Below, piece by piece: positions 2,375 to 22,452 of a stretch of 22,452 nt of DNA. The notes beneath the pieces are model-generated. The model was given only the letters and a program-made list of their open reading frames with translations, had not been told where the DNA came from and did no database searches. The stretch spans positions 1-22,452 of IMG/VR virus record IMGVR_UViG_3300042475_005409; one strand, 5' to 3'. A program made the translations under genes and the position numbers. The stretch comes from a virus. Every line of letters starts with the position of its first letter. Within the stretch, counting starts at the first letter, position 1.

Positions 2375-2381
2375 ACAATAT

Positions 2382-2409
2382 ATTATATAGTGCTTATTAT
2401 TTTTTGCAA
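2382..2409 (-). promoter_or_regulatory. Candidate host-type promoter before the epimerase gene
   Basis: Reading on the minus strand, TTGCAA (2409-2404), a 16-bp spacer and a perfect TATAAT (2387-2382) sit in the longest gap of the cassette. Seven bases separate TATAAT from the ATG at 2374, so the RNA would have almost no leader. It would let the epimerase and gp46 be transcribed apart from the upstream sugar genes. AT-rich DNA makes TATAAT common, but the spacing and the position in a gap favour it. Confidence 0.5.
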
Positions 2410-6024: not shown

Positions 6025-6029
6025 AATTT

Positions 6030-7546: not shown

Positions 7547-7553
7547 TTAAAAA

Positions 7554-8414
7554 CTAAAGATTTTTTTTAATATAAACTGAAAAATTTTCTTTTTTATACA
7601 CTTCATAAGCTTTTATACAGTTAGATCTCATTTCGATTATTATTTTTTTATCGATATTTGTTAAAATATTTTCTATATCTGTATAGGTCATTTTTTCAAA
7701 ATCTTTTTCTTGTATTTGTATTATTGTATCTGACCAATTCCAATCAGGTAAAACCCAGTCGTCAGAAATTAAAATAGGTATAGCCCCCGCCTGTAAGCTT
7801 TCCCAAAATCTTACTGATGATGGCGAGCTTCCTCGCGGGCATAATGAAAATATACTGCGTTCAAGTATGCTTTGATATTCTTTTTCTTCCCTTACCTTTA
7901 GAGTGCTGTTAAACGTATTTGGATCGATATGATATTGATCCCTATAGATAATATTGTTTCCTACAATTCGCTCTTTCATTCTTTCTCTTATGGGGTGAGA
8001 CGTGTATGTACCTACAAATGAAAATAAAATATCTTTAAAAACCTCTTCAAAGGAAAAAGAGCTAGTGAACGGTATCGGTATAAATTGTATATTATCAATA
8101 GTGTTGTATTTACTATGAAGAGGTGTAAAAACTTTTGTGATGTTTAGATGTTTATAATATAATTCTAAAAGCATGTAACTATCGTGTTGACATACGGTAA
8201 AGTTATTTGTTTGATCTGTTTTAAATTTACTAAGAGTTTTAAAGTAAAATTCTTTTGGTTGTTTATTAGGGTAGTTCAACCAATGACTGTTTAAAATTTG
8301 AGTCCAAGGAACAGCAATATAGTTAAGATCCGTATCTTTCAGCTGCTTAAAGCATTCATACTCAACAGGAAATTTTTCATAAGAAAATATTTCTTCAAAA
8401 AATGAATAGACCAT
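7554..8414 (-). CDS. Exostosin-like (GT47-type) glycosyltransferase
   Basis: A 286-residue GT-B-type protein with a clear exostosin signature: FVGTYTSHPIRERM at 133-146, then FSLCPRGSSPSSVRFWESL at 189-207 and AIPILISDDW at 211-220. The CPRG, Arg, Glu and IPI residues are the usual donor-site marks of GT47. It abuts the next upstream gene, also exostosin-like, with no gap, and shares its FxGxxxSHPIR and C-RG...R-x-x-E motifs, so the pair probably arose by duplication. They now differ widely, so they may add different sugars. No membrane anchor is visible, unlike animal exostosins. Confidence 0.78.
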   Translation of the reverse strand: MVYSFFEEIFSYEKFPVEYECFKQLKDTDLNYIAVPWTQILNSHWLNYPNKQPKEFYFKTLSKFKTDQTNNFTVCQHDSYMLLELYYKHLNITKVFTPLHSKYNTIDNIQFIPIPFTSSFSFEEVFKDILFSFVGTYTSHPIRERMKERIVGNNIIYRDQYHIDPNTFNSTLKVREEKEYQSILERSIFSLCPRGSSPSSVRFWESLQAGAIPILISDDWVLPDWNWSDTIIQIQEKDFEKMTYTDIENILTNIDKKIIIEMRSNCIKAYEVYKKENFSVYIKKNL

Positions 8415-9317
8415 TTATATATTATAACTCAAATACTGAGCAAATCCATCTGGAGCAATGTATTTCGTATATGTTTCTCGAATATTTTGCTGTAACGCTA
8501 TTAATTTATCTTCTGCTATCGACGACCAAAATTCATTTAACAGCGTGTTAAGATTGTTTATATCTGTTACGTAAATGCCTGTATTACTCCAATCAGTCTT
8601 ATCCTGGCACGGGTAAACACAATCGGTATCAATAATAATAGGTATGCGACCGCATGAGAGTGTTTCGTATAATCTGTAAGAAAAGTTACCTGCCCCTCTA
8701 CAACATAAAACAAAATCAGAATTTACTATATTATCTACATACACTTTTCTGATATTTGAGTCATGAGGTGCACCGCCCCAAAAACTATTTCTTATTATAA
8801 AATTTTTATTGATGTGTTCGTTTTGATTTAATATATTAAGACAATCGTTACGGATCGGGTGAGATATGTAACCGCAAAATCCTACTGTCGGTTTATTAGC
8901 TTTTAGCCTGAAAGCTTTGTCTGGTACAAATAAATCTTGAGACCATGCTGGCATGGCGTGTTCATTTATTTTTTTCTTCGAAGCTAATAGAGATGTTCTA
9001 TATAAAACAAGATTATCAAAACTTGCAACAGGTAAACTATTATCGTCATTATAAAAGCAATAAACTTTTTTATTGTAGTGCTTAGCTAGTTCGACGTACT
9101 CAACTACGTTAGAATCAAATTTTTTAGGATATATAAAAACGTCAGCTTCTTCTTTATTAACTAATTTAATATTCTGTTTTATACCTGGAAGCCAATTATT
9201 GTTTTTAAAGTCATTATCTTTGTTAATAACGTCCTCGGAAAAAAAAGGTAAAAGTAGAAACTGTTCTGAAGTAAATTTTGTAAAATCTACACTATCATAA
9301 TCAAACCAAATTTTCAT
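8415..9317 (-). CDS. Exostosin-like (GT47-type) glycosyltransferase, paralog of its neighbour
   Basis: A 300-residue protein starting MKIWFDYDSVDF. GFCGYISHPIR at 146-156 parallels the FVGTYTSHPIR of the next gene. FVLCCRGAGNFSYRLYETL (202-220) and GRIPIIIDTDCVYP (223-236) form the GT47 donor-binding region. YNDDNSLP (89-96) lies in the N-terminal domain. The start overlaps the upstream GT77-like gene by 17 bp, the longest overlap in the cassette. The reading is secure because both protein ends look natural. Cytoplasmic and soluble by sequence; sugar specificity unknown. Confidence 0.77.
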   Translation of the reverse strand: MKIWFDYDSVDFTKFTSEQFLLLPFFSEDVINKDNDFKNNNWLPGIKQNIKLVNKEEADVFIYPKKFDSNVVEYVELAKHYNKKVYCFYNDDNSLPVASFDNLVLYRTSLLASKKKINEHAMPAWSQDLFVPDKAFRLKANKPTVGFCGYISHPIRNDCLNILNQNEHINKNFIIRNSFWGGAPHDSNIRKVYVDNIVNSDFVLCCRGAGNFSYRLYETLSCGRIPIIIDTDCVYPCQDKTDWSNTGIYVTDINNLNTLLNEFWSSIAEDKLIALQQNIRETYTKYIAPDGFAQYLSYNI

Positions 9318-9963
9318 AGTTGTGTTTAATCATTTTAATGAGCTGTAATTTGTTAGCTACACCCTTAACGTAATTAGCATGATGTACGAGAATTTCTTTT
9401 GGCGGGACGATATCTGTGACATTATCCCAGTTATGAGTGCCATCTTTATTATTGAAGAAGTTACCGATAGTAAAATATTTTTTATTATCAAGGAGTTTAT
9501 ATTTTACTAAATTTCTGTGCTCGTTTAATGCTACTTGATCATTGACCAAATATCTAAATGTGCTTTTAATAGTTTGAAAGAGCTTTTTAGTGTCGTTATT
9601 ACTCTTACATGCAAAAAAACCAGCGCAAAGACTTCCACAATCTTCCTGACATACAATATCTACATCAGTTAATTGTTCTTGTAAATCGGTTACGAAAGGT
9701 TTAAGAAATTGTATATCGCAGTCGGCAAATATAAACCAACTATTAAATGTTTCTTCTATAGCTGTAAGTATAACATCTAATTTAAAATCCATTGAATCAA
9801 GCCAACCCTGTGTCATAAACATGCCATCTTGAGTGGTTTGAGTGTGATTTAGTACTTTTATTGCTACTTCTTCTTTTGAGTATAAAGCTCTTAACGATGC
9901 TTTAAAGAAGTCATCATATAGTTGTTTATGACTATCGCTATAATGTGTATAAATTTTAACCAT
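9301..9963 (-). CDS. Nucleotide-diphospho-sugar transferase, GT77-like
   Basis: A 220-residue GT-A-type protein. NSWFIFADCDIQFLKPF (74-90) carries a DCD metal motif in the style of the nucleotide-diphospho-sugar transferase (GT77-related) group. CAGFFACKSN and NDQVALNE downstream are typical of that group: a glycine-rich turn, then NDQ. LVHHANYVKGVANK near the C-terminus gives the closing His-containing segment. It overlaps its upstream neighbour by 8 bp and its downstream neighbour by 17 bp. Donor and acceptor unknown. Confidence 0.7.
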   Translation of the reverse strand: MVKIYTHYSDSHKQLYDDFFKASLRALYSKEEVAIKVLNHTQTTQDGMFMTQGWLDSMDFKLDVILTAIEETFNSWFIFADCDIQFLKPFVTDLQEQLTDVDIVCQEDCGSLCAGFFACKSNNDTKKLFQTIKSTFRYLVNDQVALNEHRNLVKYKLLDNKKYFTIGNFFNNKDGTHNWDNVTDIVPPKEILVHHANYVKGVANKLQLIKMIKHNYENLV

Positions 9964-10693
9964 TACTATTAATAAAGTTTTTTAATTTATTAATTTCTTC
10001 TTCAATTTCTTTTTTATATGTTTCAATAAACTGTCTACTATTCCAAATACCTTTACGAAGGTCTTCAAGATTTTGAGAAACAGGGTCTTGATTGTTATCT
10101 GTAACACTGTAATGCAGGTGTTTAATAAGAATATCATGTCTATAAACAGTTCTCTTTAAAGTGTCGAATACAATTTGTGGCCATGTATCGTGATGTGTGT
10201 TTTCCATATACGGCTCTACAAAATACCCTGTGGTATTAATATAATTTTTATGAATAAAAAAATTTACACAAAGCGGTGGTATTTGTGCATATTGATTGCC
10301 TGGGCCACGCATTCCATCATTGCAATGAACCATAATAATTTTATCTTTGGGTGCATTTTCAAATTCTTTATTGACATCAATATCCCAAGCTTGAGTTTTG
10401 AACATCATATCATCCCCAATCATAGCGTAAATATCAGCATCGATTTTTTTTGCCATACCATTCCACATTGTAGATAGACCTAAAAATTTACCGTTGTTTT
10501 TAAATTCAACAACTTTAACAATAGAGACATTTTGTTCTAGATAATCATAATATTTTTTAGCAGGATCATCTTCATCGACTCCTAAAACCAATATTACGTT
10601 TTTTGGATCTTTAACTGTAGTAATAAGACTAGAAACAAGCGTGAGTAACTTATTCATTCTATTTCGAGTTGGACACATTAATGCAATTTTCAT
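9956..10693 (-). CDS. GT2-like glycosyltransferase
   Basis: A 245-residue protein. It begins MKIALMCPTRNRMNKL, the PTRNR opening common in GT2-like enzymes. IYAMIGDDMMFKTQAWD (88-104) gives the DD metal motif. MRGPGNQYAQIPP and HHDTWPQIVFD downstream fit an acceptor or catalytic loop, though I cannot name the catalytic base. The charged C-terminal tail EIEEEINKLKNF probably forms a helix. It overlaps the FkbM-like gene by 4 bp and the GT77-like gene by 8 bp. Phages carry related small transferases, but the substrate cannot be inferred. Confidence 0.66.
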   Translation of the reverse strand: MKIALMCPTRNRMNKLLTLVSSLITTVKDPKNVILVLGVDEDDPAKKYYDYLEQNVSIVKVVEFKNNGKFLGLSTMWNGMAKKIDADIYAMIGDDMMFKTQAWDIDVNKEFENAPKDKIIMVHCNDGMRGPGNQYAQIPPLCVNFFIHKNYINTTGYFVEPYMENTHHDTWPQIVFDTLKRTVYRHDILIKHLHYSVTDNNQDPVSQNLEDLRKGIWNSRQFIETYKKEIEEEINKLKNFINSNG

Positions 10694-11343
10694 ATTTTTT
10701 TATAAATTACGTGATTGTCGTTAGGTTTATCCCCATCTGCTTGAAAATCTGCAAATATAAAGTTATTAGTTTCTGCTAATTTTTCTATATTTTTTAACCC
10801 TTCAAGTCCATGAAGTTCATTGGGGCTATCATAATCATTAGGACTAAAACCCCAATGTTCAAAAACTATTATATCAAAACTATTTTGTAAGTTGCTTTTA
10901 AAAATACTATTAATAATAAAACTGTCAAATCCTTCTGTATCAATATATAAAAGGTTTATGTGTTCGATATTAAATTCTTTTAAAACATTTTTTATAGTTT
11001 TTGTCGGTACCGTGGCAAACACCTGTTCGGTATTCCAATCTTTAAGAGGTTTTATAGAACTATGTTCTGAACGACCGGTAGAGCTATACATATTAATATT
11101 TTTAATATTTTCGTCATCTGTTATTGCAATATTAATAATATTATAATTTAGATTTTTATAATTTTGTTTAATACTTTCGTTTAAGTTTGCATGAGGCTCG
11201 ATAAGTAAAATATTTTTTGGTAGGTATTTTTGACATAGCTTGTTAAAAAAGTCATTACCGTCATTAGTGCCAATCTGTAAAAAAAATAAATTTTGTAGAT
11301 CAGTTTTTTGATATGTAAGAATGTCTTCTAGAGTTAGTATCAT
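10690..11343 (-). CDS. FkbM-family SAM methyltransferase
   Basis: A 217-residue class I methyltransferase of FkbM type. FLQIGTNDGND (21-31) is motif I, LLIEPHANL (46-54) the second SAM contact, and LLYIDTEGFDSFII (131-144) the conserved D-x-E-G segment of FkbM proteins. The family methylates hydroxyls on sugars and polyketides. The ATG at 11343 is chosen over an in-frame TTG at 11364, which lies directly against the upstream stop and adds only seven residues. It overlaps the next gene by 4 bp. Of the four methyltransferases in the cassette this is the easiest to place in a family. Confidence 0.82.
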   Translation of the reverse strand: MILTLEDILTYQKTDLQNLFFLQIGTNDGNDFFNKLCQKYLPKNILLIEPHANLNESIKQNYKNLNYNIINIAITDDENIKNINMYSSTGRSEHSSIKPLKDWNTEQVFATVPTKTIKNVLKEFNIEHINLLYIDTEGFDSFIINSIFKSNLQNSFDIIVFEHWGFSPNDYDSPNELHGLEGLKNIEKLAETNNFIFADFQADGDKPNDNHVIYKKI

Positions 11344-11364
11344 AAAAATATTAGCTATTAACAA

Positions 11365-12003
11365 TTAATCGTATTCGGGCCATTTTTCTTTAAGAAAAGG
11401 TTCTATACCATGCGTCATTTCATAATGCTTTTCATTTAATAAAATATGACTCTGCATTTTCAAATGTTTAATTTTTGCATTTTGTAATAAAGCATGTTTA
11501 AGATTATGCTTTTTTAAGTTATTACAATAGTCATTATCTTGATACCAAAATTTAAATTTTGGATCAAAAAGACCGATAGTACCTAAAGTTTTTCTTGTAA
11601 AAGCAATACAGCACCCTATAACATGATAACCAACTTTTGTCCCTTCAATATCATCAAGAATATTATTATGGGTGTTAACGTCTTGAGGGCATACAGAATC
11701 GTATATATCTAGTTTTGTTTCAATTTCTTGTAAACAACCAGGTGAAAAAATAACGTCATTATTAGAAATAAGTATTTTATTGTCATCTGTATAGCTTAAA
11801 CCGTAGTTTATAAATTTATTATAATTAAATTCCTCTTCTGGAAATATAAATTTAGCATTTAATGGAATATTTTTACCTTTAAGCTTACTATTCGTTTCAA
11901 CCACAATTACAGAATATTTGTTTGTGTCAATACTATCAATACAATCTTTTAAAAGATAAAAATAAGAAGGATTTGCAGTATTAGACAATATTATTATAGT
12001 CAT
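11365..12003 (-). CDS. GT2-family glycosyltransferase
   Basis: A 212-residue GT2-type enzyme starting MTIIILSNTANPSYF. ILISNNDVIFSPGCL (77-91) carries the NDV form of the metal motif often seen in rhamnosyl- and related GT2 enzymes. GCCIAFTRKTLGTIGLFD (130-147) followed by FWYQDNDYC (152-160) is the usual GT2 acceptor loop and catalytic acidic segment, here QDND instead of the more common E-D-x-D. It lies one base after the GT4-like gene stop. The length is near the minimum for a GT2 domain, with no C-terminal extension or membrane helices. Confidence 0.78.
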   Translation of the reverse strand: MTIIILSNTANPSYFYLLKDCIDSIDTNKYSVIVVETNSKLKGKNIPLNAKFIFPEEEFNYNKFINYGLSYTDDNKILISNNDVIFSPGCLQEIETKLDIYDSVCPQDVNTHNNILDDIEGTKVGYHVIGCCIAFTRKTLGTIGLFDPKFKFWYQDNDYCNNLKKHNLKHALLQNAKIKHLKMQSHILLNEKHYEMTHGIEPFLKEKWPEYD

Positions 12004-12004
12004 A

Positions 12005-12889
12005 TTACGTGAAGCGTTGTAGCAGATTTAATATCTGTTTTTCGTGTGTTTGTTTGTCGTTTTGAACTACATTAATATACGGAATAAATTCAGTAATTAA
12101 TGTATTATAGTTTTTAAGAGCGTCGCGTAATAAGTCGGGTGTTTGGGATGTTAATTCTCTAAGTTTAAATTTATTTGAAATAGGGACATCTAAGTCGTTT
12201 TTAGCTGAACCAAAACATGAGGTAAGTATTATATTATCGCATAGAGCTGCTTCCCGTGGTATACGGTCTCTTCCCGGGTGGTGACCAAAATCTATATACA
12301 CTTTTGACTGCTTTAAAATTTGTATAATTTGCTCTTTAGACATGTCCTGTAAAGGCACAAACTGTAGATTGTATTTTTGTGAATTTTTTATTAAATGCAT
12401 TGTAGCTTCAAGACCTTTTAAGGGATTAAAAGTAATAATGTCTCGTTTAGGTAATTTGTTATTATCAATACCGTCAATGTAGTCAAAGACTGGTAAAATG
12501 TTCGTAATACCATTTTTTATTAAAAATTGATTTGCATATTCTGATTGATATAGATGTAATATATCTGAGTTGTTAAAGTCCTTGAAATTATTTTTGTTAT
12601 TATCAACACTTAACCACCAAACAGCTTTTTTGCAGTTTTTAAATTCTTGTAATGAGCCTGTCCATATTTCTGCATAAACAACCAACATGTTTTCGTTATC
12701 CTCAACCTTATTAGTTATTCTAACGTGCCTATAACGTTTATACTCATCAGGGATTGGGTTGGCATGATCGTTATTGACGAACTTAATATAACACTCTCCG
12801 CCAAGTCTATTGACAGTATCACAAAACTGATATATAGATTCAACACCGCCAGTACGGTATGCTGGTTCGTTATATATTACAATTTTCAT
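12005..12889 (-). CDS. GT4-like (GT-B fold) glycosyltransferase
   Basis: A 294-residue GT-B-type protein. YRTGGVESIYQFC (11-23) matches the N-terminal glycine-rich loop of GT4 enzymes. KVYIDFGHHPGRDRIPREAA (196-215) matches the C-terminal donor site, where an E-x7-E-type motif is common; here Glu213 follows the GRDRIPR segment. It is the only GT4-like gene in the cassette. It begins three bases after the methyltransferase stop. The protein is shorter than typical GT4 enzymes (350-400 residues), and the inter-domain region looks compact. Confidence 0.72.
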   Translation of the reverse strand: MKIVIYNEPAYRTGGVESIYQFCDTVNRLGGECYIKFVNNDHANPIPDEYKRYRHVRITNKVEDNENMLVVYAEIWTGSLQEFKNCKKAVWWLSVDNNKNNFKDFNNSDILHLYQSEYANQFLIKNGITNILPVFDYIDGIDNNKLPKRDIITFNPLKGLEATMHLIKNSQKYNLQFVPLQDMSKEQIIQILKQSKVYIDFGHHPGRDRIPREAALCDNIILTSCFGSAKNDLDVPISNKFKLRELTSQTPDLLRDALKNYNTLITEFIPYINVVQNDKQTHEKQILNLLQRFT

Positions 12890-12892
12890 ATT

Positions 12893-13537
12893 TTATTCTT
12901 TAATAAAATAAGGAAAGGTCATAACTTTTTCCCAGTTTGTATTTGTTCCAAATTCGGGGTTTTTGTTCTTAAGTTGAACAAATGTCATGTCCCAAGATTC
13001 TGGATAGGTTTCAACCTTTATAAACTCGTCTTCGTAATTCATTTCCTTTAAAATAAAGAATTCTTTGACTCCATCGTCAGGGCGATCCCAATAAGAATTT
13101 GCATAAAAATCTTTTTTATCAGGTGGCCAGCACGTATCATGAAAGACAATAAGTCCTTGATCTTTTACATGAGGTAACCAATGTTTTAACTCTAAAAGAA
13201 CCTGCTCTTTAATATGTAGAGTGTCCACAAATAAAACATCTATCTTACCGCTGTTCCAGTTTTTACTCGCTGTTATTGAATCTTGATATATAAATGTATA
13301 CTTAGGGTGGTTAATTAAATCATCATCGATTTGTTTTTCAATATCGACACCAAAAACACGATTATTACGATCTATTGACTGATAGAGCATAATCATCGAT
13401 GACACTCCACCTCTTACACCTAGATCTACTAAGGTGGAGTTAGTAATATTCTGTAGTTTGTTTTTTAAAACAATACTATTGTTACCTAAGTCGGTCCAAG
13501 TATAGTCTATTATTTTTGTATCATTAAAAATATTCAT
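12893..13537 (-). CDS. Class I SAM methyltransferase (Methyltransf_24-like)
   Basis: A 214-residue protein. LVDLGVRGGVSSM (36-48) is a motif I variant. KIDVLFVDTLHIKEQVL (98-114) is the strand that ends in Asp with a nearby His, and GLIVFHDTCW (128-137) the following strand. This D-x-LH...HD pattern is shared by Methyltransf_24 proteins and by the cephalosporin hydroxylase-like group. Motif I here is DLGVRGG rather than ExGxxxG, so SAM binding is likely but not certain. It overlaps the GT2-like gene upstream by 4 bp. It is distantly similar to the methyltransferase at 14376-14894, with the same LH...EQVLL element. Confidence 0.68.
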   Translation of the reverse strand: MNIFNDTKIIDYTWTDLGNNSIVLKNKLQNITNSTLVDLGVRGGVSSMIMLYQSIDRNNRVFGVDIEKQIDDDLINHPKYTFIYQDSITASKNWNSGKIDVLFVDTLHIKEQVLLELKHWLPHVKDQGLIVFHDTCWPPDKKDFYANSYWDRPDDGVKEFFILKEMNYEDEFIKVETYPESWDMTFVQLKNKNPEFGTNTNWEKVMTFPYFIKE

Positions 13538-14379
13538 GATTTTAATTTTTTTATCATTTGTATAATTTGTTCTTTCGGAACAAAAGGTGGCTGATTGGGA
13601 TAGTGCCCATGTTTTTGAAGGTATTTTTCTCGGCCACTGTAAACATTCTTACCCCACTCTTCAGATTTATTAGCAATTGAAGAATTATCAATGGCTCCAG
13701 GTGCCTCTGTTAAGAGTTTATGACTATCAGCTAGATCAGCAAACCACCAAAAAGGTGGGTGGTATCCCGCTTTAATAATTCTATAGGTATGATCAACGTG
13801 TTCCCAGGCATTATAGAATTGCTCATCAATGAGACCTACTTTTTCAAGTACCTCTCTAGTAAAGAAAGAGAACATAGCAACAGTGTGTTCGTATAGTGCT
13901 ACTTTAATATCTTTTGAATATTCAATTATAAGTTTTGGGTTTGGTTCTGAGTCTTGTTTAAGGAGATGTCGATTATGAAGATCAAACTGAATATCTTGTT
14001 TACGATTAAAAGGTGAGCCAGGTCCGTAATTAAAATGATGAATACCTGATAGCTTATATGCGTCAATATACTTGTTAAAAATATTTTTATCTAAAACAAG
14101 CATATCTTCTTCTATAATAAAAATATAATCACAATTTTCGCTAAGTAGATAACGCATTGCTTGATTTTTTGCTTTTGCAACACCCTGTCTTTGTGGTGTT
14201 TGCTCGTGTAAACGAATCTTTTCGCTTAATCCGATATTAACATTATGCTCTTTTAAGGGTTTGCCATCATTAATAATATAAAGACAGTCAATATTGGTGC
14301 TATCTAGAGATTTTAAAAGACCTTTCAAATAATCAGGTCTATCACAAGTTATAATTCCAACTCCAATTTTAGTACTCAT
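13534..14379 (-). CDS. GT2-family glycosyltransferase
   Basis: A 281-residue GT-A enzyme. IGVGIITCDRPDYLKGLLKSL (5-25) is a standard GT2 opening. IFIIEEDMLVL (86-96) places EED where DxD is expected. MFSFFTREVLEKVGLIDE (169-186) and NAWEHVDHTYRIIKAGY (190-206) give the acceptor loop and the catalytic W-E-H-x-D segment. A C-terminal part after 210 has several Trp and Pro residues and may recognise the acceptor. The ATG at 14379 overlaps the upstream stop (ATGA); the reading from 14394 lies inside the previous gene. With the adjacent methyltransferases it forms an MT-GT-MT group at the start of the cassette. Confidence 0.78.
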   Translation of the reverse strand: MSTKIGVGIITCDRPDYLKGLLKSLDSTNIDCLYIINDGKPLKEHNVNIGLSEKIRLHEQTPQRQGVAKAKNQAMRYLLSENCDYIFIIEEDMLVLDKNIFNKYIDAYKLSGIHHFNYGPGSPFNRKQDIQFDLHNRHLLKQDSEPNPKLIIEYSKDIKVALYEHTVAMFSFFTREVLEKVGLIDEQFYNAWEHVDHTYRIIKAGYHPPFWWFADLADSHKLLTEAPGAIDNSSIANKSEEWGKNVYSGREKYLQKHGHYPNQPPFVPKEQIIQMIKKLKS

Positions 14380-14894
14380 TTTATAAAATACCAAGCATCT
14401 GTCGGTATAAGATTGATAATTTTGTTTTGTGTATGTGCGAATTCATCAACTGCCTGACGTACTCCTTGTATTGTGTTATAATCGTGACCGGAAAATACTC
14501 CTCCTTGTTTTAATTTAGGGTAGTAATTCTTACAATCTAAAAGTACTTGTTCATAGGTATGAAGCCCGTCAATAAAAATAAAATCAAAAAAATCATTTTC
14601 AAAATTTACAAGCGCATCGTCTGAAGTTTGTTTATAATGAATAAAGCGTTGTTCATGTTTAGCTAATTTAATTTTAGCTTTTTTCTCTGCACTATCTGGA
14701 TCATCTGCATGATGTGTTAAACGGCCATTCCAGTCTGTATATATTTGATAAGGATCAATACCGTAAAGAGTTAATTGTGGCAGAGAGGTAAGTAAAAAAT
14801 CTGCACCGGTTCCATCATAATTACCAATTTCTAAACCGACAATTGTTGATTTATTTTTTAGTAATTCTATTAATCCTAAGCTTGAATATCCCAT
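14376..14894 (-). CDS. Class I SAM methyltransferase (Methyltransf_24-like)
   Basis: A compact 172-residue methyltransferase, and the first cassette gene to be transcribed, four bases after the gp47 stop. VGLEIGNYDGTGADFLL (19-35) is motif I. FDFIFIDGLHTYEQVLLD (103-120) and GGVFSGHDYN (131-140) are the conserved Asp-Gly-Leu-His and Gly-His-Asp segments of this family. The length matches a bare catalytic domain. The closeness to gp47 suggests the cassette is read through from the recombination genes rather than from its own promoter. The methyl acceptor is unknown. Confidence 0.76.
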   Translation of the reverse strand: MGYSSLGLIELLKNKSTIVGLEIGNYDGTGADFLLTSLPQLTLYGIDPYQIYTDWNGRLTHHADDPDSAEKKAKIKLAKHEQRFIHYKQTSDDALVNFENDFFDFIFIDGLHTYEQVLLDCKNYYPKLKQGGVFSGHDYNTIQGVRQAVDEFAHTQNKIINLIPTDAWYFIK

Positions 14895-15960: not shown

Positions 15961-16523
15961 TACTGATTTTCAACTCGGAAAGAGTCATCGTACTCACTAT
16001 CAAACTTTGTATTCTTTTGAAAAGGTATTTGACCAGATTCTGTAAGAAGCGAGTAAACTTCTGTCTGATAGCGGTGAATTGTGTCGTGTTCTTTCTTTTC
16101 TTTCTTAATACGGTTTTGGAAAGCTCTGTAAGCGACTTTAGTAAAATATGAGAACGGATTATAGCCTGATTTGCATTTAAAACGTTTACGCGTCAAAGCT
16201 GTAATCATTTTAATAATTGCATCCCCAATCATTTCTTCTTTATAAGAATAGTTAATAAAATTGTTTGCATACCCAAGACGGGTCGCAATCTTTTGAATCA
16301 TATCAGCTAAATCAGAAGGAATATCCTTACCCCCTTCTTCGTAGTAACGAATAATGTGATTCTCCATTTCAATTGGATCAACGTAGTTAGGTTTAAGTTC
16401 CTCTTTTGTACGACGAACACGCTTCTTTTTGATTTTTGGTTCGGAATCCCACAAAGATGAAAAATCCTCTTCATTAGGGTCATTTTTAAAATCATCGTCT
16501 TTAATTTTTCTGCGTCTAGGCAT
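15960..16523 (-). CDS. 55: gp55-like late-transcription sigma factor
   Basis: A 187-residue protein, almost the size of T4 gp55 (185). It directs host RNA polymerase to late promoters, which in T4 have the sequence TATAAATA. SYKEEMIGDAIIKMI (about 92-106) and NPFSYFTKVAYRAFQNRIKK align with the SWKQEMIADGI and [20 protein letters not shown] segments of T4 gp55, the remnants of sigma region 2. The N-terminal 45 residues are very basic (MPRRRKIK, KIKKKRVRR) and not typical of T4 gp55. It has a promoter-like sequence in the 32-bp gap after uvsW. The repeated TTAAATAATA element on the plus strand is a candidate target. Confidence 0.9.
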   Translation of the reverse strand: MPRRRKIKDDDFKNDPNEEDFSSLWDSEPKIKKKRVRRTKEELKPNYVDPIEMENHIIRYYEEGGKDIPSDLADMIQKIATRLGYANNFINYSYKEEMIGDAIIKMITALTRKRFKCKSGYNPFSYFTKVAYRAFQNRIKKEKKEHDTIHRYQTEVYSLLTESGQIPFQKNTKFDSEYDDSFRVENQ

Positions 16524-16531
16524 AATATAAA

Positions 16532-16559
16532 AGTATATAACAACTTGTTAATAAATCAA
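16532..16559 (-). promoter_or_regulatory. Candidate promoter for the gp55 sigma gene
   Basis: On the minus strand, TTGATT (16559-16554), a 16-bp spacer and TATACT (16537-16532) form a host-type promoter that matches the sigma70 consensus at 4 of 6 and 5 of 6 positions. Eight bases separate it from the ATG of gp55. The -35 element overlaps the uvsW stop codon. It would allow gp55 to be made independently of uvsY and uvsW. Confidence 0.45.
16538..16550. promoter_or_regulatory. Perfect 13-bp palindrome, possible operator
   Basis: TAACAACTTGTTA is a perfect inverted repeat with one central base. It fills most of the spacer between the -35 and -10 elements of the candidate gp55 promoter. A dimeric repressor bound here would block polymerase. 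No repressor gene is visible in the window, so this is positional inference only. Confidence 0.35.
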
Positions 16560-18001
16560 CTCTCATGTAGTTCTGTAACTGAGTATGATATCTGTTCTCT
16601 ATCGTAGAGAGCTAAACGTTCAGTTACATGCTTATTACCGTAACGGAGATTATCCCAAATATCAAAAATTGTAGCGCGCTTTTTACTAGCATGTTTTCTT
16701 AAACTTCTCCCAATAGACTGAATAATTTTTATTCGAGCTTTTCCAATAGCAGCAAAAATAATATTATGAAGATTTTTAATATTAATACCAGTTGAAAAGA
16801 TCTTTGAAATAGCAATACAGGCGACATTATCTTGTTCTTCCATTAACTTACGGATCATTTCTCGTTCTTCGATCTCAATAGCACCATGAACAAAATGAAC
16901 TGCCTTATCAGTATTTTCTTGAAGTACTCTCAATAACTCTTCACCATGGGCAATACGATCTACCATTATGAGAGTATTTTTATCAGCTTTATTTACAAGC
17001 TTAGTTATGATGTCGTTCCTAAACTTGTTAGTTTGTAACCAGGTTATTTCTTCTTCATATCCTGCAGTTGGGTTATGCATAGATGGAACAGTAAATTGCG
17101 GGACGTTACTGTAGTTTAACTTTAAAGCAGCTACGTGAACCTGAGATATGTACTTCTGTTCTCTGAGGTCAGCAGACTGTTTAAAGTAAATTACTCTGCC
17201 TATCTTCCCGAATATGTTCCATTGGTCGATTTTATCGTCTGGCAAAGTTCCTGTAAGTCCGTAGCGAAATAATGCAGGAATTTGCTCCACCACTTTATTA
17301 ATTTTGTTTCCATAACGAATTTTGTGTACTTCATCTATAACAAGTAATTTTATATCTTTAAGCAAAGATAGGTCTTGTTTTTCAGAGAGTAAAATTTGTG
17401 CATTTGAAATTACTATCTTAGCATTCTTATTCGGTTCTGTTGAGCCAGTCCACTTAGTAATTTCATCTTCCGGGATTCCGTACTCAAGGAAGTCTGAGTA
17501 GGTTTGAGCAACGAGTTGAATGTCGGGTACAAGAATTAAAGTTTTACAATCATGCTGGGCTTGAATAGATTTAACCAACAAAGCAATTACAAGAGTCTTA
17601 CCTGCTGAAGTTGGTAATACTATTACACCTGACTTATTTTTAATAGCAGCCAGGACTGACTCTTCTTGATAGTCTCTCGGGTCAAGATTTAGCTTTACAA
17701 GCTCTTCTTTTAGAGTAGGTATAGCTATTATGTCTCTAAACTTATCAGTTAGTTCAATATTAAACTGTATGTCCTGAGTCTTTAAAAACTCAAGAATCGA
17801 AAATAGCAATCTCGGTTCAAATCTACCTTGAGGGGTTATAGCGTATTGTCTTGTCTGAGGCCTGTAACCAATAGCGTAACGGCGCTTGAAGACTTGTTGT
17901 TTATCTTCAACCGAAAAATGTTCTCGAATATTTGGAAGATAGTCTGAAACTATTATACCTTTTTTACGAGAAGTATCATAATCAAACGTTACATTTACCA
18001 T
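16556..18001 (-). CDS. uvsW: UvsW-like recombination helicase
   Basis: A 481-residue superfamily 2 helicase that in T4 remodels branched DNA and helps switch origin-dependent to recombination-dependent replication. Residues 1-100 form the N-terminal DNA-binding domain. RDYQ at 109-112 serves as Q-motif, PTSAGKT (130-136) as Walker A, IDEVHK (222-227) as motif II, TGT (250-252) as motif III, and QSIGRSLRK (428-436) as motif VI with arginine fingers. The length is near T4 UvsW (about 500). It lies five bases after the uvsY stop, and the same two genes are also close in T4. There is no Shine-Dalgarno sequence before the ATG. Confidence 0.93.
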   Translation of the reverse strand: MVNVTFDYDTSRKKGIIVSDYLPNIREHFSVEDKQQVFKRRYAIGYRPQTRQYAITPQGRFEPRLLFSILEFLKTQDIQFNIELTDKFRDIIAIPTLKEELVKLNLDPRDYQEESVLAAIKNKSGVIVLPTSAGKTLVIALLVKSIQAQHDCKTLILVPDIQLVAQTYSDFLEYGIPEDEITKWTGSTEPNKNAKIVISNAQILLSEKQDLSLLKDIKLLVIDEVHKIRYGNKINKVVEQIPALFRYGLTGTLPDDKIDQWNIFGKIGRVIYFKQSADLREQKYISQVHVAALKLNYSNVPQFTVPSMHNPTAGYEEEITWLQTNKFRNDIITKLVNKADKNTLIMVDRIAHGEELLRVLQENTDKAVHFVHGAIEIEEREMIRKLMEEQDNVACIAISKIFSTGINIKNLHNIIFAAIGKARIKIIQSIGRSLRKHASKKRATIFDIWDNLRYGNKHVTERLALYDREQISYSVTELHES

Positions 18002-18006
18002 TAAAC

Positions 18007-18426
18007 TTATGTGGTTTCCATGCGGACTATTTCAATAAGGTTTCGAATATCAAATCCAATTGACCTAAAATTAGTTTCAATTTTTTCGAGGTATTCTATT
18101 ACTAAACTATGCTCAGCTATTTGATCATCGATTTTTATAATTACGGGATGATTTTGTTGAGCTTGTTCTAAAGTTTTAGGATTAAGACCGACAGGTGATT
18201 CATGCTCGAGCTTATCGGCAATTTTTTTCTGAGCTTCTTTTCTGAGCTTTTTAAGTTTTAAAATTTCTTGTTTGTGGTACATGAGACGACCGACCCAGTA
18301 GTGACGCGTTGCCGGCAAGTCCATTTGAACCTGCTTCATATTAAACTCATCTACAGTAACGTATTTTTTGATCTCTTCGTTATATTTTTCTATTAACGAA
18401 ATAACTGACTGTTCTTGGTCTTCCAT
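18007..18426 (-). CDS. uvsY: UvsY-like recombination mediator
   Basis: A 139-residue helical protein, nearly the size of T4 UvsY (137), which loads the UvsX recombinase onto single-stranded DNA coated by gp32. The segment HYWVGRLMYHKQEILKLKKL, then RKEAQKKIADK, parallels the T4 stretch with LYSKWLNKH and RIEAQKKVAL. GFDIRNLIEIVRMET at the C-terminus parallels GFAIKHIQDMRAFEA. Identity is modest, but size, motif order and position before uvsW agree. It is the first gene of the minus-strand block and the only gene here with a Shine-Dalgarno-like AAGG ahead of its start. Confidence 0.85.
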   Translation of the reverse strand: MEDQEQSVISLIEKYNEEIKKYVTVDEFNMKQVQMDLPATRHYWVGRLMYHKQEILKLKKLRKEAQKKIADKLEHESPVGLNPKTLEQAQQNHPVIIKIDDQIAEHSLVIEYLEKIETNFRSIGFDIRNLIEIVRMETT

Positions 18427-18483: not shown

Positions 18484-18624
18484 ATGCAATCATTTAAACA
18501 ATTTTTAGCTGAAAAAGAAGAAAAGCGTAGATTAGATCCTAAATGTTGGAAGGGTTATCGCAAACAAGGTACTAAGCTTAAAGACGGTACTAGAGTAAAT
18601 AAGTGTGTTAAAGTAAACAAATGA
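18484..18624 (+). CDS. Small basic protein with T4-type capsid-targeting peptide
   Basis: A 46-residue protein. The first ten residues, MQSFKQFLAE, closely follow the T4 capsid-targeting sequence MKTYQEFIAE of the internal proteins, which the gp21 protease removes after the Glu. The rest is Lys/Arg-rich (about a third of residues) with DPKCWKGYRKQGTK and a second Cys at 41. I recall similar small proteins in marine T4-like phages but know no function. A basic peptide carried in the head with the DNA would fit. It overlaps the next gene by ATGA and has a candidate late promoter four bases upstream. Confidence 0.75.
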   Translation: MQSFKQFLAEKEEKRRLDPKCWKGYRKQGTKLKDGTRVNKCVKVNK

Positions 18625-18842
18625 TTAATTTAGAACAAATAGTTTTAGACGTTTTGAATGAAGAAAATGTAACAGGAGGGGCTGCATCAGCTTTTGGTTC
18701 AGGGGTTCAGTCTACAGCTACTCAATTTTCAGGGGATAACTATGCTCCTGGAGATGCGCGTATTCCTAAAAGTATATTTGGTGGTATAGTTACTCGTAGA
18801 GGATTAATTAAAGGCAAGAAAAAGCGTAAAAAGAAACGCTGA
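18621..18842 (+). CDS. Small phage protein with Gly-rich centre and basic tail
   Basis: A 73-residue protein starting MINLEQIVLDVLNEE. The N-terminal helix ends in VLNEE, which contains an LxE pattern like a T4 prohead protease site. A Gly/Ser/Ala-rich centre (GGAASAFGSGVQ) and GDNYAPGDARIPKS follow, and it ends in a run of ten mostly Lys/Arg residues, KGKKKRKKKR. The tail suggests contact with DNA or RNA. Function unknown. It overlaps the preceding 46-residue gene (ATGA), so the two are likely made together. Confidence 0.7.
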   Translation: MINLEQIVLDVLNEENVTGGAASAFGSGVQSTATQFSGDNYAPGDARIPKSIFGGIVTRRGLIKGKKKRKKKR

Positions 18843-18852
18843 TTCTGCTTTT

Positions 18853-19266
18853 ATGGATACAGGTCATTGGCTTATTAACGAGAATGTTAGCGTACATGAA
18901 GACATGTTTGGCTTCATTTATGAAATAACTAATAAGGTTAGTGGTAAGAAATATATTGGTAAGAAGCAATGTATCCATAAAATTAAACGTAAACCACTCA
19001 AGGGCAAGACACGTAATAGAATTGATCATAAAGAATCAGATTGGAAGACCTATACTTCATCATCTAACGAATTAAACGAAGATATTCAAAAGCATGGTAA
19101 AGAAAACTTCGAATTTCGTATCTTGAAGGTTTGTGGTTCTAAATGGGAGTTAGCTTGGGAAGAAGCTAAAGAACAAATAAGCAAAGACGTTTTGCGAAGA
19201 GATGATTATTATAATGGTATTCTGAACCTTAGAATCGGGACTCCTCCTAAGAGTCTCCTTAAATAA
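18853..19266 (+). CDS. GIY-YIG endonuclease-like protein (SegE-like)
   Basis: A 137-residue protein. FIYEITNKVSGKKYIG (21-36) is the FIY-x10-YIG signature of GIY-YIG nucleases. The rest fits the SegE-like group found in T4-type phages, with a basic loop (IKRKPLKGKTRNR) after the motif, WKTYTSSS, and WEEAKEQI carrying the likely catalytic Glu. It may be a free-standing homing enzyme or a domesticated nuclease. There is no intron or broken gene nearby to show recent homing. It begins 10 bp after the previous stop. An internal Met at 18904 directly before the catalytic motif is an alternative start. Confidence 0.75.
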   Translation: MDTGHWLINENVSVHEDMFGFIYEITNKVSGKKYIGKKQCIHKIKRKPLKGKTRNRIDHKESDWKTYTSSSNELNEDIQKHGKENFEFRILKVCGSKWELAWEEAKEQISKDVLRRDDYYNGILNLRIGTPPKSLLK

Positions 19267-19268
19267 TA
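19259..19268 (+). promoter_or_regulatory. TTAAATAATA element, candidate late promoter, copy 2
   Basis: The exact 10-mer spans the final Lys and stop codons of the GIY-YIG gene and lies four bases before the ATG at 19273, the same spacing as copy 1. Confidence 0.45.
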
Positions 19269-19272
19269 CATA

Positions 19273-19887
19273 ATGGAATTGATTGACGAAAAGAAAGTAT
19301 CTGCTTTTAAACCAGTTTCGAGATGTTTATATTGTAATTCTACATCTTACGGCAAAGGTTGTAGGTTTGCGCCTAAAGGGGTACATTTTCATCCTTCAGA
19401 CCCTAAAAAATGTTCGTATTGCGGGTCACCATCTTTTGGTAAAGGGTGTAAGTTAAATCCGTTTTCAGATATTCACCTTCATGGTATTGATTATAACAAA
19501 ATGTTTAACGAATCTTTAAGAAATAAATTTTTAACTCAACAGCTTAATAAATCCTTTACAGACTTCGAGGCTTACAAACTTGGTATTATAAACGAAAAAG
19601 GAGATAAGATAAAAGAGCCAATAACCGAGCAAGAGAGAGCTGCCTATTCACCAGAAACAAAAACAATTCTTAAGATTAAAAAATATCTTGGTTCAAAATT
19701 AGATCTTATAAATCAGACAGCAATCTTAGAAAACGCTTCTAATATTGAGTACAATAAAGAGAATCATAAAACGTTTTTAGAGTATGAGCAAAAAATTAAT
19801 AATATTTTTGCCCAACTTCATGAAACAGCTGATAATGCTATTAAAGATGGCTTGACCCTAGAGCAAGTTCAGGCATTATTACAATAA
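19273..19887 (+). CDS. Protein with two tandem Cys/His zinc-binding modules
   Basis: A 204-residue protein. Two copies of one module follow each other: C18-x2-C21-x8-C30-x7-HxH40 and C47-x2-C50-x8-C59-x8-HxH70, each with the sequence G-K-G-C in the middle. Together they should bind two zinc ions. The remainder is helical and charged, with AAYSPETKTILKIKKYLG and a C-terminal ALLQ helix, and has no motif I recognise. It may be a DNA- or protein-binding adaptor. It overlaps the next gene by one base (TAATG). Function unknown; the zinc sites are inferred from spacing. Confidence 0.75.
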   Translation: MELIDEKKVSAFKPVSRCLYCNSTSYGKGCRFAPKGVHFHPSDPKKCSYCGSPSFGKGCKLNPFSDIHLHGIDYNKMFNESLRNKFLTQQLNKSFTDFEAYKLGIINEKGDKIKEPITEQERAAYSPETKTILKIKKYLGSKLDLINQTAILENASNIEYNKENHKTFLEYEQKINNIFAQLHETADNAIKDGLTLEQVQALLQ

Positions 19888-20378
19888 TGCATTTCAAAGA
19901 GTATCCCAAGTCCCGGGTTTGCGGCATAGACTTCTATCCTTACTTCGTAGAGGCTCTCAAAGAGTCTTACGGGTTCTGTAAAAAATATAAGATCCCTTAT
20001 TCATTTAAATCTAAGGACATTCAAAAGTTCTTTTATCATTATTGTTTAGAAAAGCTTTGTTATGGGTATCAAAAATGTGACTCCAAGTATCCAAAAGCTC
20101 TTGTTGTATATCCTTTACCAAAAGATGTTGGATTTACTGATAAGCATTTTGAAAAAGTATTAAAAGTATTGCCTGTACCCTGGGTCAAAGTTCGTCAATT
20201 TGATTCACCGGACACTGAATACGCAGTACAAAGAGTTTTATCTAACGGTAAACTTATAAGCTCGAAGTTAGAAAAGTTTTTGAATAAGAATTCTCTTATT
20301 AACTTCCAGAAAAAAAATAAAAAAATAAAAACTTTTTCCATGGGTACAGTTGATTTAGCTAACGGCACCCCTAATTAA
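19887..20378 (+). CDS. Phage protein of unknown function
   Basis: A 163-residue protein starting MHFKEYPKSRVCGIDFYPYF. It is rich in Tyr, Phe and Lys, with FFYHYCLEKLCYGYQKC and KVLPVPWVKVRQFDSPDTEY as the most distinctive segments, and a basic Lys/Asn tail near 145. There is no signal peptide or membrane segment. I do not recognise a family. Its start overlaps the preceding stop by one base, so it belongs to the same unit as the zinc-binding protein. A 67-bp gap with a hairpin follows. Confidence 0.65.
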   Translation: MHFKEYPKSRVCGIDFYPYFVEALKESYGFCKKYKIPYSFKSKDIQKFFYHYCLEKLCYGYQKCDSKYPKALVVYPLPKDVGFTDKHFEKVLKVLPVPWVKVRQFDSPDTEYAVQRVLSNGKLISSKLEKFLNKNSLINFQKKNKKIKTFSMGTVDLANGTPN

Positions 20379-20396
20379 TGTAAAGAATTGTAAGCC

Positions 20397-20415
20397 CTTC
20401 GCCAAATAGGCGGAG
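20397..20415 (+). other. GC-rich hairpin in the 20379-20445 gap
   Basis: CTTCGCC, loop AAATA, GGCGGAG: a 7-bp stem with one G-T pair, unusually GC-rich for this DNA. No T-run follows, so a simple intrinsic terminator is unlikely. It may protect the end of the upstream transcript or be processed. It lies 18 bp before a TTAAATAATA element. Confidence 0.45.
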
Positions 20416-20432
20416 AAAATTACTGTTCCTGA

Positions 20433-20442
20433 TTAAATAATA
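20433..20442 (+). promoter_or_regulatory. TTAAATAATA element, candidate late promoter, copy 3
   Basis: The exact 10-mer lies in a non-coding gap three bases before the ATG at 20446, so its conservation cannot be due to coding. Confidence 0.5.
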
Positions 20443-20445
20443 TAT

Positions 20446-20703
20446 ATGAGTAAATTTGATGCCATTTATAAAAGAATAGAAGAAGCCTTACCGATAACAT
20501 CACAACAGCAAGCAACCGCTGCTGGTGTTCCACCTAAACCTGTCGCTGGTCAACCGCAGCAGCCTGCCGTTGATCCTAAAATTGTACAAGAACTAATTGC
20601 TGCTAAGACAGAACAACAAGTTCAAATGGCATTGCAAAAAATGCAAGCCGCTCAACAAGCTCAGCAACAAAAACCCGGTACACCAACACAACCTGCTGCG
20701 TAA
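20446..20703 (+). CDS. Small Gln/Ala/Pro-rich protein
   Basis: An 85-residue protein. The N-terminal helix MSKFDAIYKRIEEALP ends in IEE-A, which fits the T4 prohead protease pattern (L/I-x-E, then A). The rest is low complexity: Gln, Ala and Pro make up about half, with PQQPAV, KMQAAQQAQQQK and TPTQPAA. Such composition suggests a flexible or scaffold-like protein. It abuts the next gene with no gap. Function unknown. Confidence 0.62.
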   Translation: MSKFDAIYKRIEEALPITSQQQATAAGVPPKPVAGQPQQPAVDPKIVQELIAAKTEQQVQMALQKMQAAQQAQQQKPGTPTQPAA

Positions 20704-21072
20704 ATGGATAAGGTTATTGTTAACCTTATAAAAATTCAAAACCAGTTAAGAATTCTTCACTGGCAAACACTTTCTTATGCTGCCCATAAAGCTTTAGGTA
20801 ATGCTTATGGCGATTTAGATGATTTAATTGATAGTCTTGTTGAAATACATCAAGGCAAATACGGAAGACTTAAATTTGAAACTCCAATCGATTTTGGCTT
20901 AGTTAATCAAGATGAAATTGATTTAGAAGACGTCCTTATTCAACTAAATGACTATTTGACCGGTTCATTTAACGAAATGCATGACCCGATTAAGGATACA
21001 GATTGTCTTAACGTTAGAGACGAAATCTTAGCTGTTATTAATAAACTACGCTATCTCTTAACGCTTAAATAA
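20704..21072 (+). CDS. Small helical phage protein with Dps-like residues (DUF5856-like)
   Basis: A 122-residue, all-helical protein. The first 50 residues resemble the start of Dps/ferritin-like proteins: LRILHWQT, then His28, Asp43 and Glu47. The spacing His28-x14-Asp43-x3-Glu47 is the same as His63, Asp78 and Glu82 of E. coli Dps; LHW lies three residues closer than in Dps. I associate it with DUF5856 of T4-like phages, from memory. It is shorter than Dps (about 165), so a full dodecamer cage is doubtful. It may be a four-helix structural protein that kept the motif by descent. It sits between the Gln-rich gene and the KxDG protein. Confidence 0.65.
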   Translation: MDKVIVNLIKIQNQLRILHWQTLSYAAHKALGNAYGDLDDLIDSLVEIHQGKYGRLKFETPIDFGLVNQDEIDLEDVLIQLNDYLTGSFNEMHDPIKDTDCLNVRDEILAVINKLRYLLTLK

Positions 21073-21074
21073 TA
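21065..21074 (+). promoter_or_regulatory. TTAAATAATA element, candidate late promoter, copy 4
   Basis: The exact 10-mer spans the last Leu-Lys-stop codons of the helical protein and lies seven bases before the ATG at 21082. Confidence 0.42.
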
Positions 21075-21081
21075 AAGCGTT

Positions 21082-22332
21082 ATGATCGAACAAGCTTTTA
21101 ATAGCTTATTTTGGAAAAATTATAATAAACCTCAACCTCTTGTAGTAGAACAAGAATCAAAGGGTATTAATTTCCATCTCACCCACCTTGAAGAGTTGGT
21201 ACTCGTGGGTCAAAAACAGGGGTTAGACGTTGCTATTAGATTTATTAATGAATTAACTAATATCTTCGAGGGTAACACTGATTCTAAGCTTTTTACTACT
21301 GTTAAATTTGATGGTGCACCTGCTGTATTAGCAGGGTATAACCCGGAAAACGGTAAGTTCTTTGTATCTACTAAAAATCCTGATAAAGCAAGCTATTCAA
21401 TTCCAGAAATCGTACAAAACTTTGGTCATGCACCAGGTTTGGTCGAAAAGCTTAAATTAGCCTTTTTGTATCTTCCTAAAGTTATTAAACAAAACTACTA
21501 TCAGGGGGATTTTATGTTCAGTAAATCTGATATTCGAGAAATTGAATATGAGGGTCAAAAACTTTTAACATTTAAACCTAATACTATTACTTACGCTGTT
21601 GAAGCTGATTCACCTCTCGGACAAAAAGTACGTAACGCGCAAATCGGTATTGTCTTTCATACCAAATATACAGGTGGGGTCGGTAAAGAAACATCTAAAA
21701 CTCCCGATGTATCAGTTAAAGAGTTTAATCTTATACCTGAAGTGTTTGTCGACGATGCTAAATTTAAAGACGTTTCGGGTATGGCTACTTTAACCAATCA
21801 AGAAGAAGAGCTTATTAAAACAAATCTTGACAAAGTACAAAAGGCTGGAGGGGTTATTGATTGGTTGTCCCTTACCCCTACAACTTACGCTAATCTTAAT
21901 ACATTTATAAACACTTTAATTCGTCAAGGGAGATTTGTAGATGATCCTGATAAAAATTTCGATGAATTTGTTGAATGGGTTAATAATAGTTTCGATAAAC
22001 AGATCGAAAAATTAAAAACTGAAGCCGGGCGTCAAAAGAAAATAGAATCAAAAGCTAAGAATACAGAATACTTACAAACCAATAAAATGACTTTAGTAAA
22101 TATATTCTTTGTTTCCAAATTACTTGCCGAAATTAAAAAGATCTTTATAGAAAAATATAACAACGCTATTAACTCTCGTCAATTTTTAGCTCAACCTGAC
22201 GGCACTCTTAAAGTCACTCAACCTGAAGGTTACGTAGCTGTAGATCATGAAGGTAATATGATTAAGCTTGTCGACCGGTTAGAGTTTTCTAGAGCTAATT
22301 TTTCAATACCTAGGGAGAAAAAATTTCAATGA
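21082..22332 (+). CDS. DUF6267-like phage protein with KxDG ligase-like motif
   Basis: A 416-residue protein. FTTVKFDGAPAVLAG (71-85) contains KFDG, the lysine motif I (KxDG) of ATP-dependent nucleic acid ligases and capping enzymes. GDFMF (142-146) and IGIVFHTKY (188-196) could serve as motifs III and IV/V. I recall the family as DUF6267 in T4-like phages; its function is not known to me. NFHLTHLEELV (30-40) is the usual N-terminal element of the family. The first 23 residues, ending LVVE, may be a cleaved leader. The last four bases overlap the next gene (ATGA), which encodes a nucleotidylyltransferase-like domain. Confidence 0.7.
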   Translation: MIEQAFNSLFWKNYNKPQPLVVEQESKGINFHLTHLEELVLVGQKQGLDVAIRFINELTNIFEGNTDSKLFTTVKFDGAPAVLAGYNPENGKFFVSTKNPDKASYSIPEIVQNFGHAPGLVEKLKLAFLYLPKVIKQNYYQGDFMFSKSDIREIEYEGQKLLTFKPNTITYAVEADSPLGQKVRNAQIGIVFHTKYTGGVGKETSKTPDVSVKEFNLIPEVFVDDAKFKDVSGMATLTNQEEELIKTNLDKVQKAGGVIDWLSLTPTTYANLNTFINTLIRQGRFVDDPDKNFDEFVEWVNNSFDKQIEKLKTEAGRQKKIESKAKNTEYLQTNKMTLVNIFFVSKLLAEIKKIFIEKYNNAINSRQFLAQPDGTLKVTQPEGYVAVDHEGNMIKLVDRLEFSRANFSIPREKKFQ

Positions 22333-22452
22333 TAGCTTTTAACCGTTTTTTTACAGAACAAATTAGAGATGGTAAACTGGTAATAATTTACCCAGGGCGC
22401 TTTCAACCTGCTCATAGAGGTCATGCTATGATTTATAACTCAATAGTAGAAG
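22329..22452 (+). CDS. HxGH nucleotidylyltransferase-like protein, 3' end outside window
   Basis: Forty-one codons are visible. MIAFNRFFTE (1-10) resembles a T4 capsid-targeting peptide. YPGRFQPAHRGH (21-32) follows, the nucleotide-binding loop and HxGH motif of cytidylyl-/adenylyltransferases such as NMN adenylyltransferase and glycerol-phosphate cytidylyltransferase. Such proteins are found in many T4-like phages. It starts with an ATGA overlap on the preceding gene. The substrate cannot be decided from this fragment. Confidence 0.8.
   Translation, partial: MIAFNRFFTEQIRDGKLVIIYPGRFQPAHRGHAMIYNSIVE

Follow-up and report, generated by a model that had tools for sequence, protein, structure and literature searches.

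In bacteriophage T4, proteins with an N-terminal capsid-targeting sequence are brought into the prohead's scaffold core and cleaved by the protease gp21, and many of them are ejected into the host (PMC9026906). For the internal protein IPIII the first ten residues suffice for loading, residues 4 and 7 being those of targeting and residues 8 and 10 those of processing (PMC9026906). Cytidylyltransferase/NMNAT-like proteins have been reported from the virions of the cyanophages S-CREM2 (PMC10665884), S-SM1 (T4-GC190; PMC3037559), S-SZBM1 (PMC9146016) and S-SCSM1 (PMC9602691). The authors of the cyanophage proteome papers, who list these next to other metabolic enzymes (S-adenosylmethionine (SAM) hydrolase, kinase, Cas9-like nuclease), could not decide whether such proteins are cargo or carry-over. 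Here we analyze a 22,452-nt stretch of viral DNA (IMG/VR record IMGVR_UViG_3300042475_005409, positions 1–22,452; the window), in which two genes open with a T4-type tag. We consider it quite probable that the tagged genes encode head cargo, which would be loaded and cut in the T4 manner and would enter the host with the DNA. A megablast search of the window against phage records gave no match. Its gene content places it among the T4-like phages: among its 32 genes are those for gp46-like, gp47-like, UvsW-like helicase and UvsY-like proteins on the minus strand, after which the block of candidate cargo genes follows on the plus strand.

Genes are named here by their first nucleotide in the window. 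Gene 18484 (18484–18624, plus strand) encodes a basic peptide of 46 residues, MQSFKQFLAEK..., its tag (18484–18513) being followed by the module CWKGYRKQGTKLKDGTRVNKCVK. Gene 22329 (22329–22452, plus strand) encodes the start of an NMNAT/cytidylyltransferase-like enzyme, MIAFNRFFTEQ..., with the tag at 22329–22358; it is incomplete, since the window ends with its 41st codon. A first-pass annotation of this DNA had likened both N-termini to the T4 targeting peptide, and the likeness is confirmed: each has F4, F7, a hydrophobic residue 8 (L or F) and E10, and each fits M-x2-F-x2-F-[LF]-x-E. The T4 record supplied the reference tag, MKTYQEFIAE, from the two adjacent internal-protein open reading frames (ORFs) at 65416–66415. 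The strict motif M-x2-[FY]-x2-F-x2-E was taken from the first-pass annotation and was fixed before the S-CREM2 proteome was compared. The genome-wide search for such starts that the annotation had proposed was run on T4-like relatives, the window itself spanning 22 kb. Across 2,291 genes from 15 T4-like phage sequences the motif opens 20, against a mean of 0.69 and a maximum of 4 in 2,000 trials in which residues 2–21 of each N-terminus were permuted; in the window it opens two of the 32 genes (P(2 or more) = 0.00035). The heptad [FY]..F..E keeps to a single register, beginning at residue 4 in 20 genes and at each position over residues 12–59 in 0.73 on average, and the motif is nearly absent at internal methionines (1 in about 6,400 in one count, 0 in 2,422 in another). 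Of 43 distinct tags, 41 have L, F or I at position 8, which had no part in the selection; 28 have K at position 2, and 26 have S or T at position 3.

Within T4 itself, the strict motif matched the two internal-protein genes and gp61.1. The search matched no other T4 gene, Alt included, and missed the ORF that we take to be IPI, in which the cut is displaced. This ORF of 95 aa reads MKTFKEF...ITE-A, and a cut there would leave 76 residues, the published mature length. A much looser pattern, which asks for [LIVFM]-x-E close to the N-terminus, is found in 51 of the 216 S-CREM2 genes and does not predict presence in the virion (p = 0.26); because the pattern is so common and so uninformative, remarks on a protease site, taken alone, are weak.

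The strongest evidence is the link between tag and virion in S-CREM2, whose virion proteome has been published (PMC10665884, Table 3). When the 216 annotated genes were translated, four carried the strict motif, and all four are virion-detected, as compared with 50 of the 216 overall (Fisher p = 0.0026). The four are a SAM hydrolase (MKDFDSFLEE), an APH-like kinase (MKRFDAFLTE), gp136 (MQTFSMFFSE) and the cytidylyltransferase gp154 (MKNFSSFLTE). Allowing L at residue 4 adds gp13, likewise virion-detected (p = 0.00057), and in the Cas9-like gp12, also virion-detected, LRFASFMAE-A stands in a displaced position. The eight cytidylyltransferase/NMNAT-like genes of S-CREM2 and seven other cyanophages (a set without the S-SM1 and S-SCSM1 genes) all open with M-x2-F-x2-F-[LF]-x-E-A. 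The start of S-CRM01 g127, MKLFNQFFKEA, fits the same pattern, and an S-CRM01 kinase that is cited as a virion protein opens with MISFDQFLSE. The virion-detected cytidylyltransferase of S-SZBM1, SSZBM1_140, has a tag that is shorter by one residue (MRFRQFIIEA). A side observation concerns a recurrent cassette of cluster C cyanophages (S-CREM2 gp12–gp15, L030 7704–13331; S-CRM01 g127–g131, L114 4249–8827), made up of tagged or near-tagged genes. It holds a Cas9-like nuclease or the start of its homologue, a small protein (MKDLHSFLTE/MKKLDQFLTE) and a kinase (MKRFDAFLTE/MISFDQFLSE); in S-CREM2 all of gp12–gp15 are virion-detected.

Closer relatives of the window, here designated by G numbers, were retrieved with the 21082 protein as query. 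In the lineage that they form with the window, the nucleotidylyltransferase gene after the DUF6267 gene is strictly tagged in all eight contigs that reach it, with the tags MKTFRQFFLE, MKTFKQFFTE, MKTFRQFFTE, MIAFNHFFTE (two contigs), MRTFRQFFKE, MIAFNQFFTE and MIAFNRFFTE. The enzyme bodies behind these tags are of two types, 20–28% identical to each other, and yet the G002 and G003 enzymes, which have opposite body types, agree at eight of nine tag residues. By this comparison the tag is conserved and modular, kept where the enzyme body has diverged. The window enzyme has the motif GRFQPAHRGH, of the NMNAT type GRFQPxHxGH, and its full-length orthologue in G007 (204 aa) scores above the cut-off for PF01467 (CTP_transf_like). 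The PDB sequences nearest to this type of enzyme are NMNATs, at E-values of 0.0088 and weaker, and we predict that 22329 is likely an NMNAT-like nucleotidylyltransferase.

The 18484 peptide is retained as MQTFRQFFTEKEEKRRLDPKCWKGY in G004 and G005. Its codons differ from theirs by 15–16 synonymous and 7–9 non-synonymous changes, with 20–22 base differences at third positions; because the changes are mostly synonymous and at third positions, the comparison marks 18484 as a real gene. Two virion-detected proteins have parts that align with the body CWKGYRKQGTKLKDGTRVNKCVK: S-CREM2 gp160 at a score of 79, against at most 57 in shuffles, and SSZBM1_139 at 85, against at most 52. At the same position G007 has other small basic peptides, including MTSFKEFYKQQLLEKKDKCYYKAKRKYKVFPSAYASGYIVRCRK; the replacement peptide of G007 aligns with the adjacent module of S-CREM2 gp160 (score 116).

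The next gene, 18621 (18621–18842, plus strand), encodes a 73-aa protein, MINLEQIVLDVLNEENVTGG..., which mimics the cleavage site and N-arm of the major capsid protein gp23. Its alignment with gp23 of the relatives G001–G003 starts at the cleavage site expected there and extends into the N-arm of the mature protein (LNEENVTGG...TATQFSGDNYAPGDARIPK in 18621 and LREGSNSAA...TATTFSGDNYASGDARLPK in gp23), and none of 1,000 shuffles was as good. No capsid domain is present, and the C-terminus is the polybasic tail KGKKKRKKKR. The alignment across the expected cleavage site supports the earlier claim that VLNEE is a prohead protease site, with the cut predicted as VLNE/E. It also supports membership of 18621 in the set as a gp23 arm mimic, a reason absent from the first-pass annotation. 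In G005 the 18484-type and 18621-type peptides are fused in one frame. A tblastn search with 18621 against phages gave no match, and no similarity to gp61.1 itself was detected. Like T4 gp61.1, 18621 is small, copies the segment of gp23 at the cleavage site and N-arm, and has a lysine-rich tail; unlike gp61.1, which has the strict tag at its start, it begins MINLEQIVLDVLNEE and has no F4/F7 pair. The gp61.1 tag (KTFKEFIKE-DMVAGD) and the end of the gp23 propeptide (QAFGSFLTE-AEIGGD) align at a score of 82, against at most 48 in shuffles, which suggests that the targeting peptide copies the propeptide end. The results also suggest that small genes such as T4 gp61.1 and 18621 are copies of the cleavage-site arm of the capsid protein itself. 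The T4 gene itself (NC_000866, 18966–19130, minus strand) carries the strict tag and copies gp23 residues 57–93, and in some T4-like records its homologue is labeled 'major capsid domain-containing protein'.

We infer, by analogy with T4, that loading, cleavage and injection proceed in the window phage as follows. Like the T4 capsid-targeting sequence, the N-terminal peptide M-x2-F-x2-F-[LFI]-x-E would dock the protein on the scaffold core while the prohead is assembled; a T4-type gp21 would cut past the glutamate and release the protein inside the head; the DNA would be packaged around the freed protein, and both would pass into the next host. On this basis the 46-aa peptide 18484 and the NMNAT-like 22329 are most likely cargo of the window phage, the arm mimic 18621 is probably cargo, and the DUF6267 protein 21082 is possibly cargo. 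A likely use of 22329 would be the supply of NAD+ at the start of infection, and the basic peptides would likely contact the DNA in the head.

Several observations weigh against this reading. The gp21 and gp23 genes of the window phage lie outside the fragment, though both are present in G001–G003; HTVC008M has no strict-motif gene; and SSZBM1_191, the sole convincing strict-motif gene of S-SZBM1, is missing from the virion proteome list of that phage. Long proteins are detected more easily, and for this reason the S-CREM2 comparison was also limited to proteins of at least 150 aa (41 of 92 in the virion), whereupon the result was P = 0.036. Two of the proteome papers, PMC9602691 being one of them, could not exclude carry-over of abundant proteins. 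Both this concern and the absence of SSZBM1_191 would fit a reading in which the virion enzymes are carry-over and the motif does other work, for instance by binding some other protein of the phage or the host inside the cell. We regard that reading as improbable, given that every strictly tagged S-CREM2 protein was in the virion, that the residues kept constant match those of the T4 head-targeting peptide, and that in S-SZBM1 the tagged cytidylyltransferase was detected but its untagged DUF6267 neighbor, SSZBM1_141, was not. Chance resemblance of short N-termini to the tag is scarcely credible. The motif is indeed short and its loose form is common, but the excess of 20 starts over the 0.69 expected, their confinement to one register and their conservation where the protein body diverges effectively exclude chance for 18484 and 22329.

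Somewhat more room is left for an account in which the peptide does tag proteins for the prohead core, but these act in head assembly or DNA condensation rather than as effectors that are delivered into the host. Both 18484 and 18621 are strongly basic, 18621 mimics the N-arm of the capsid protein itself, and lysines of the T4 internal proteins contact packaged DNA (PMC3012670). Against this, 22329 and many tagged neighbors are enzymes (adenylate kinase, SAM hydrolase, kinase, cytidylyltransferase) that do not look structural, and we find the account possible but rather unlikely. The proposal of the first-pass annotation that this phage may load a basic peptide and a nucleotidylyltransferase is largely right and has good support in the right residues, in the conserved and modular tag, and in the presence of same-tag proteins in the virions of related phages. 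The protease site IEE-A that it had also named in gene 20446 has no such support.

Gene 20446 (20446–20703, plus strand) encodes an 85-aa protein rich in Q, P and A, MSKFDAIYKRIEEALPI..., and is retained as a candidate for cargo only. It has F4 and a fitting cut site, MSKFDAIYKRIEE/A; the backing for that site is confined to a start that is partly conserved in one relative, G007 (MSKFDSIIQKLQE-N). In G004 (about 16480–18030) and G005 (about 5620–7170), on the minus strand, an unrelated protein of ~490 aa replaces 20446; it starts MINFVGLCEKVLIAE-NAPKKT and has a stretch, NNPGNLEYG, reminiscent of cell-wall lytic enzymes. PADLOC, run on the window, returned only a chance-level match, for 20446.

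The first-pass annotation was incomplete in that it left out 21082 (21082–22332, plus strand), a DUF6267 protein (PF19782) that is tagged outright in many relatives. To our knowledge, no function has been described and no activity is known for DUF6267. The AlphaFold2 model of 21082 has a pLDDT of 86, with residues 1–30 disordered. In structure alignments with VIA-align the best matches of its core are RNA ligases (Naegleria, Z 9.3; T4 Rnl2, 8.2; T4 Rnl1, 7.9), and ligases dominate the list; the Foldseek E-values were not significant, and a DUF6267 profile found no meaningful match among PDB sequences. Across 60 DUF6267 sequences the motifs KxDG and EG do not vary, nor does a late lysine. Like T4 RNA ligases 1 and 2 and the Naegleria RNA ligase, 21082 has a predicted adenylyltransferase fold, KxDG, EG and the late lysine; unlike them, it has a long helical insert, and it is only 10–17% identical to them in the structure alignments. 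From these features, DUF6267 is likely ligase-like (RNA/DNA-ligase superfamily), and 21082 would be a covalent nucleotidyltransferase. In the window lineage its N-terminus has F-x2-[FL]-[FYW] two residues late, with a possible later cut (AFNSLFWKN...LVVE-Q), a layout for which the presumed IPI of T4 is a precedent. Melnitz, DLP_6 and many contigs have DUF6267 orthologues with a strict or nearly strict tag; those of S-RSM4, S-SZBM1 and S-CRM01 are untagged. At 79 further DUF6267 loci the strict tag opens 18 of 577 genes. Besides DUF6267, these include genes for an adenylate kinase (PF00406, E 1.8e-40), for a P-loop protein of the Zeta_toxin/AAA type and for proteins in which the HAD-like motif FDIDDTLF occurs.

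Other features of the window are noted in passing. Within the cargo block, after the small basic genes, lies a SegE-type GIY-YIG homing endonuclease gene (18853–19266), found also in G001, G004, G005 and G007. The untagged DUF5856 protein (PF19174; 20704–21072), which bears the PHROG label starvation-inducible transcriptional regulator, is well conserved in the window lineage and has weak similarity to a T4 protein of 128 aa. The gp46-like and gp47-like genes, near neighbors in T4, are separated here by a minus-strand island (1415–14394) of ~16 genes, including several that resemble glycosyltransferases, methyltransferases or sugar epimerases. The island looks hypervariable, because its flanks are conserved in G004, G005 and G001 (about 85% for G004/G005) and most of the island is not.

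A broader and distinctly speculative reading, which we think unlikely to hold as a whole, is that T4-like phages that infect aquatic bacteria preload a repair-and-resupply kit by means of one tag. The NMNAT-like enzyme would rebuild NAD+ and the ligase-like DUF6267 protein would accompany it, with relatives adding adenylate kinase, P-loop or phosphatase-like proteins. If true, such a kit would answer host defenses of the first minutes (NAD+ depletion, nicking of RNA or DNA) before phage genes are expressed. A tag that can be read from sequence offers a criterion separate from proteomics for the question of cargo and carry-over, and predicts which further proteins are loaded. It would also extend T4 capsid targeting, described for coliphages, to the Kyanoviridae and to the window lineage, with new kinds of cargo; our search of the open-access literature found no paper linking capsid targeting with the cyanophage proteins, and no earlier description in the window lineage.

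By its sequence features, the system of the window is of a known kind, T4 capsid targeting, with a different cargo. As in T4 IPI, IPII and IPIII, a modular ten-residue tag with F/Y4, F7, a hydrophobic residue 8 and E10 stands before small basic proteins, in a lineage whose members G001–G003 have gp21 and gp23. Unlike the T4 internal proteins, the putative cargo is predicted here from sequence and includes an NMNAT-like and possibly a ligase-like enzyme. With cyanophage T4-GC190, S-CREM2 gp154 and SSZBM1_140, 22329 shares a PF01467-type motif, the same tag and, in many genomes, the DUF6267 neighborhood. Unlike those cytidylyltransferases it belongs to a shorter type, with the motif GRFQPxHxGH and a length of about 204 aa in relatives, whereas other members of the window lineage carry the cyanophage-like GRFNPPT type.

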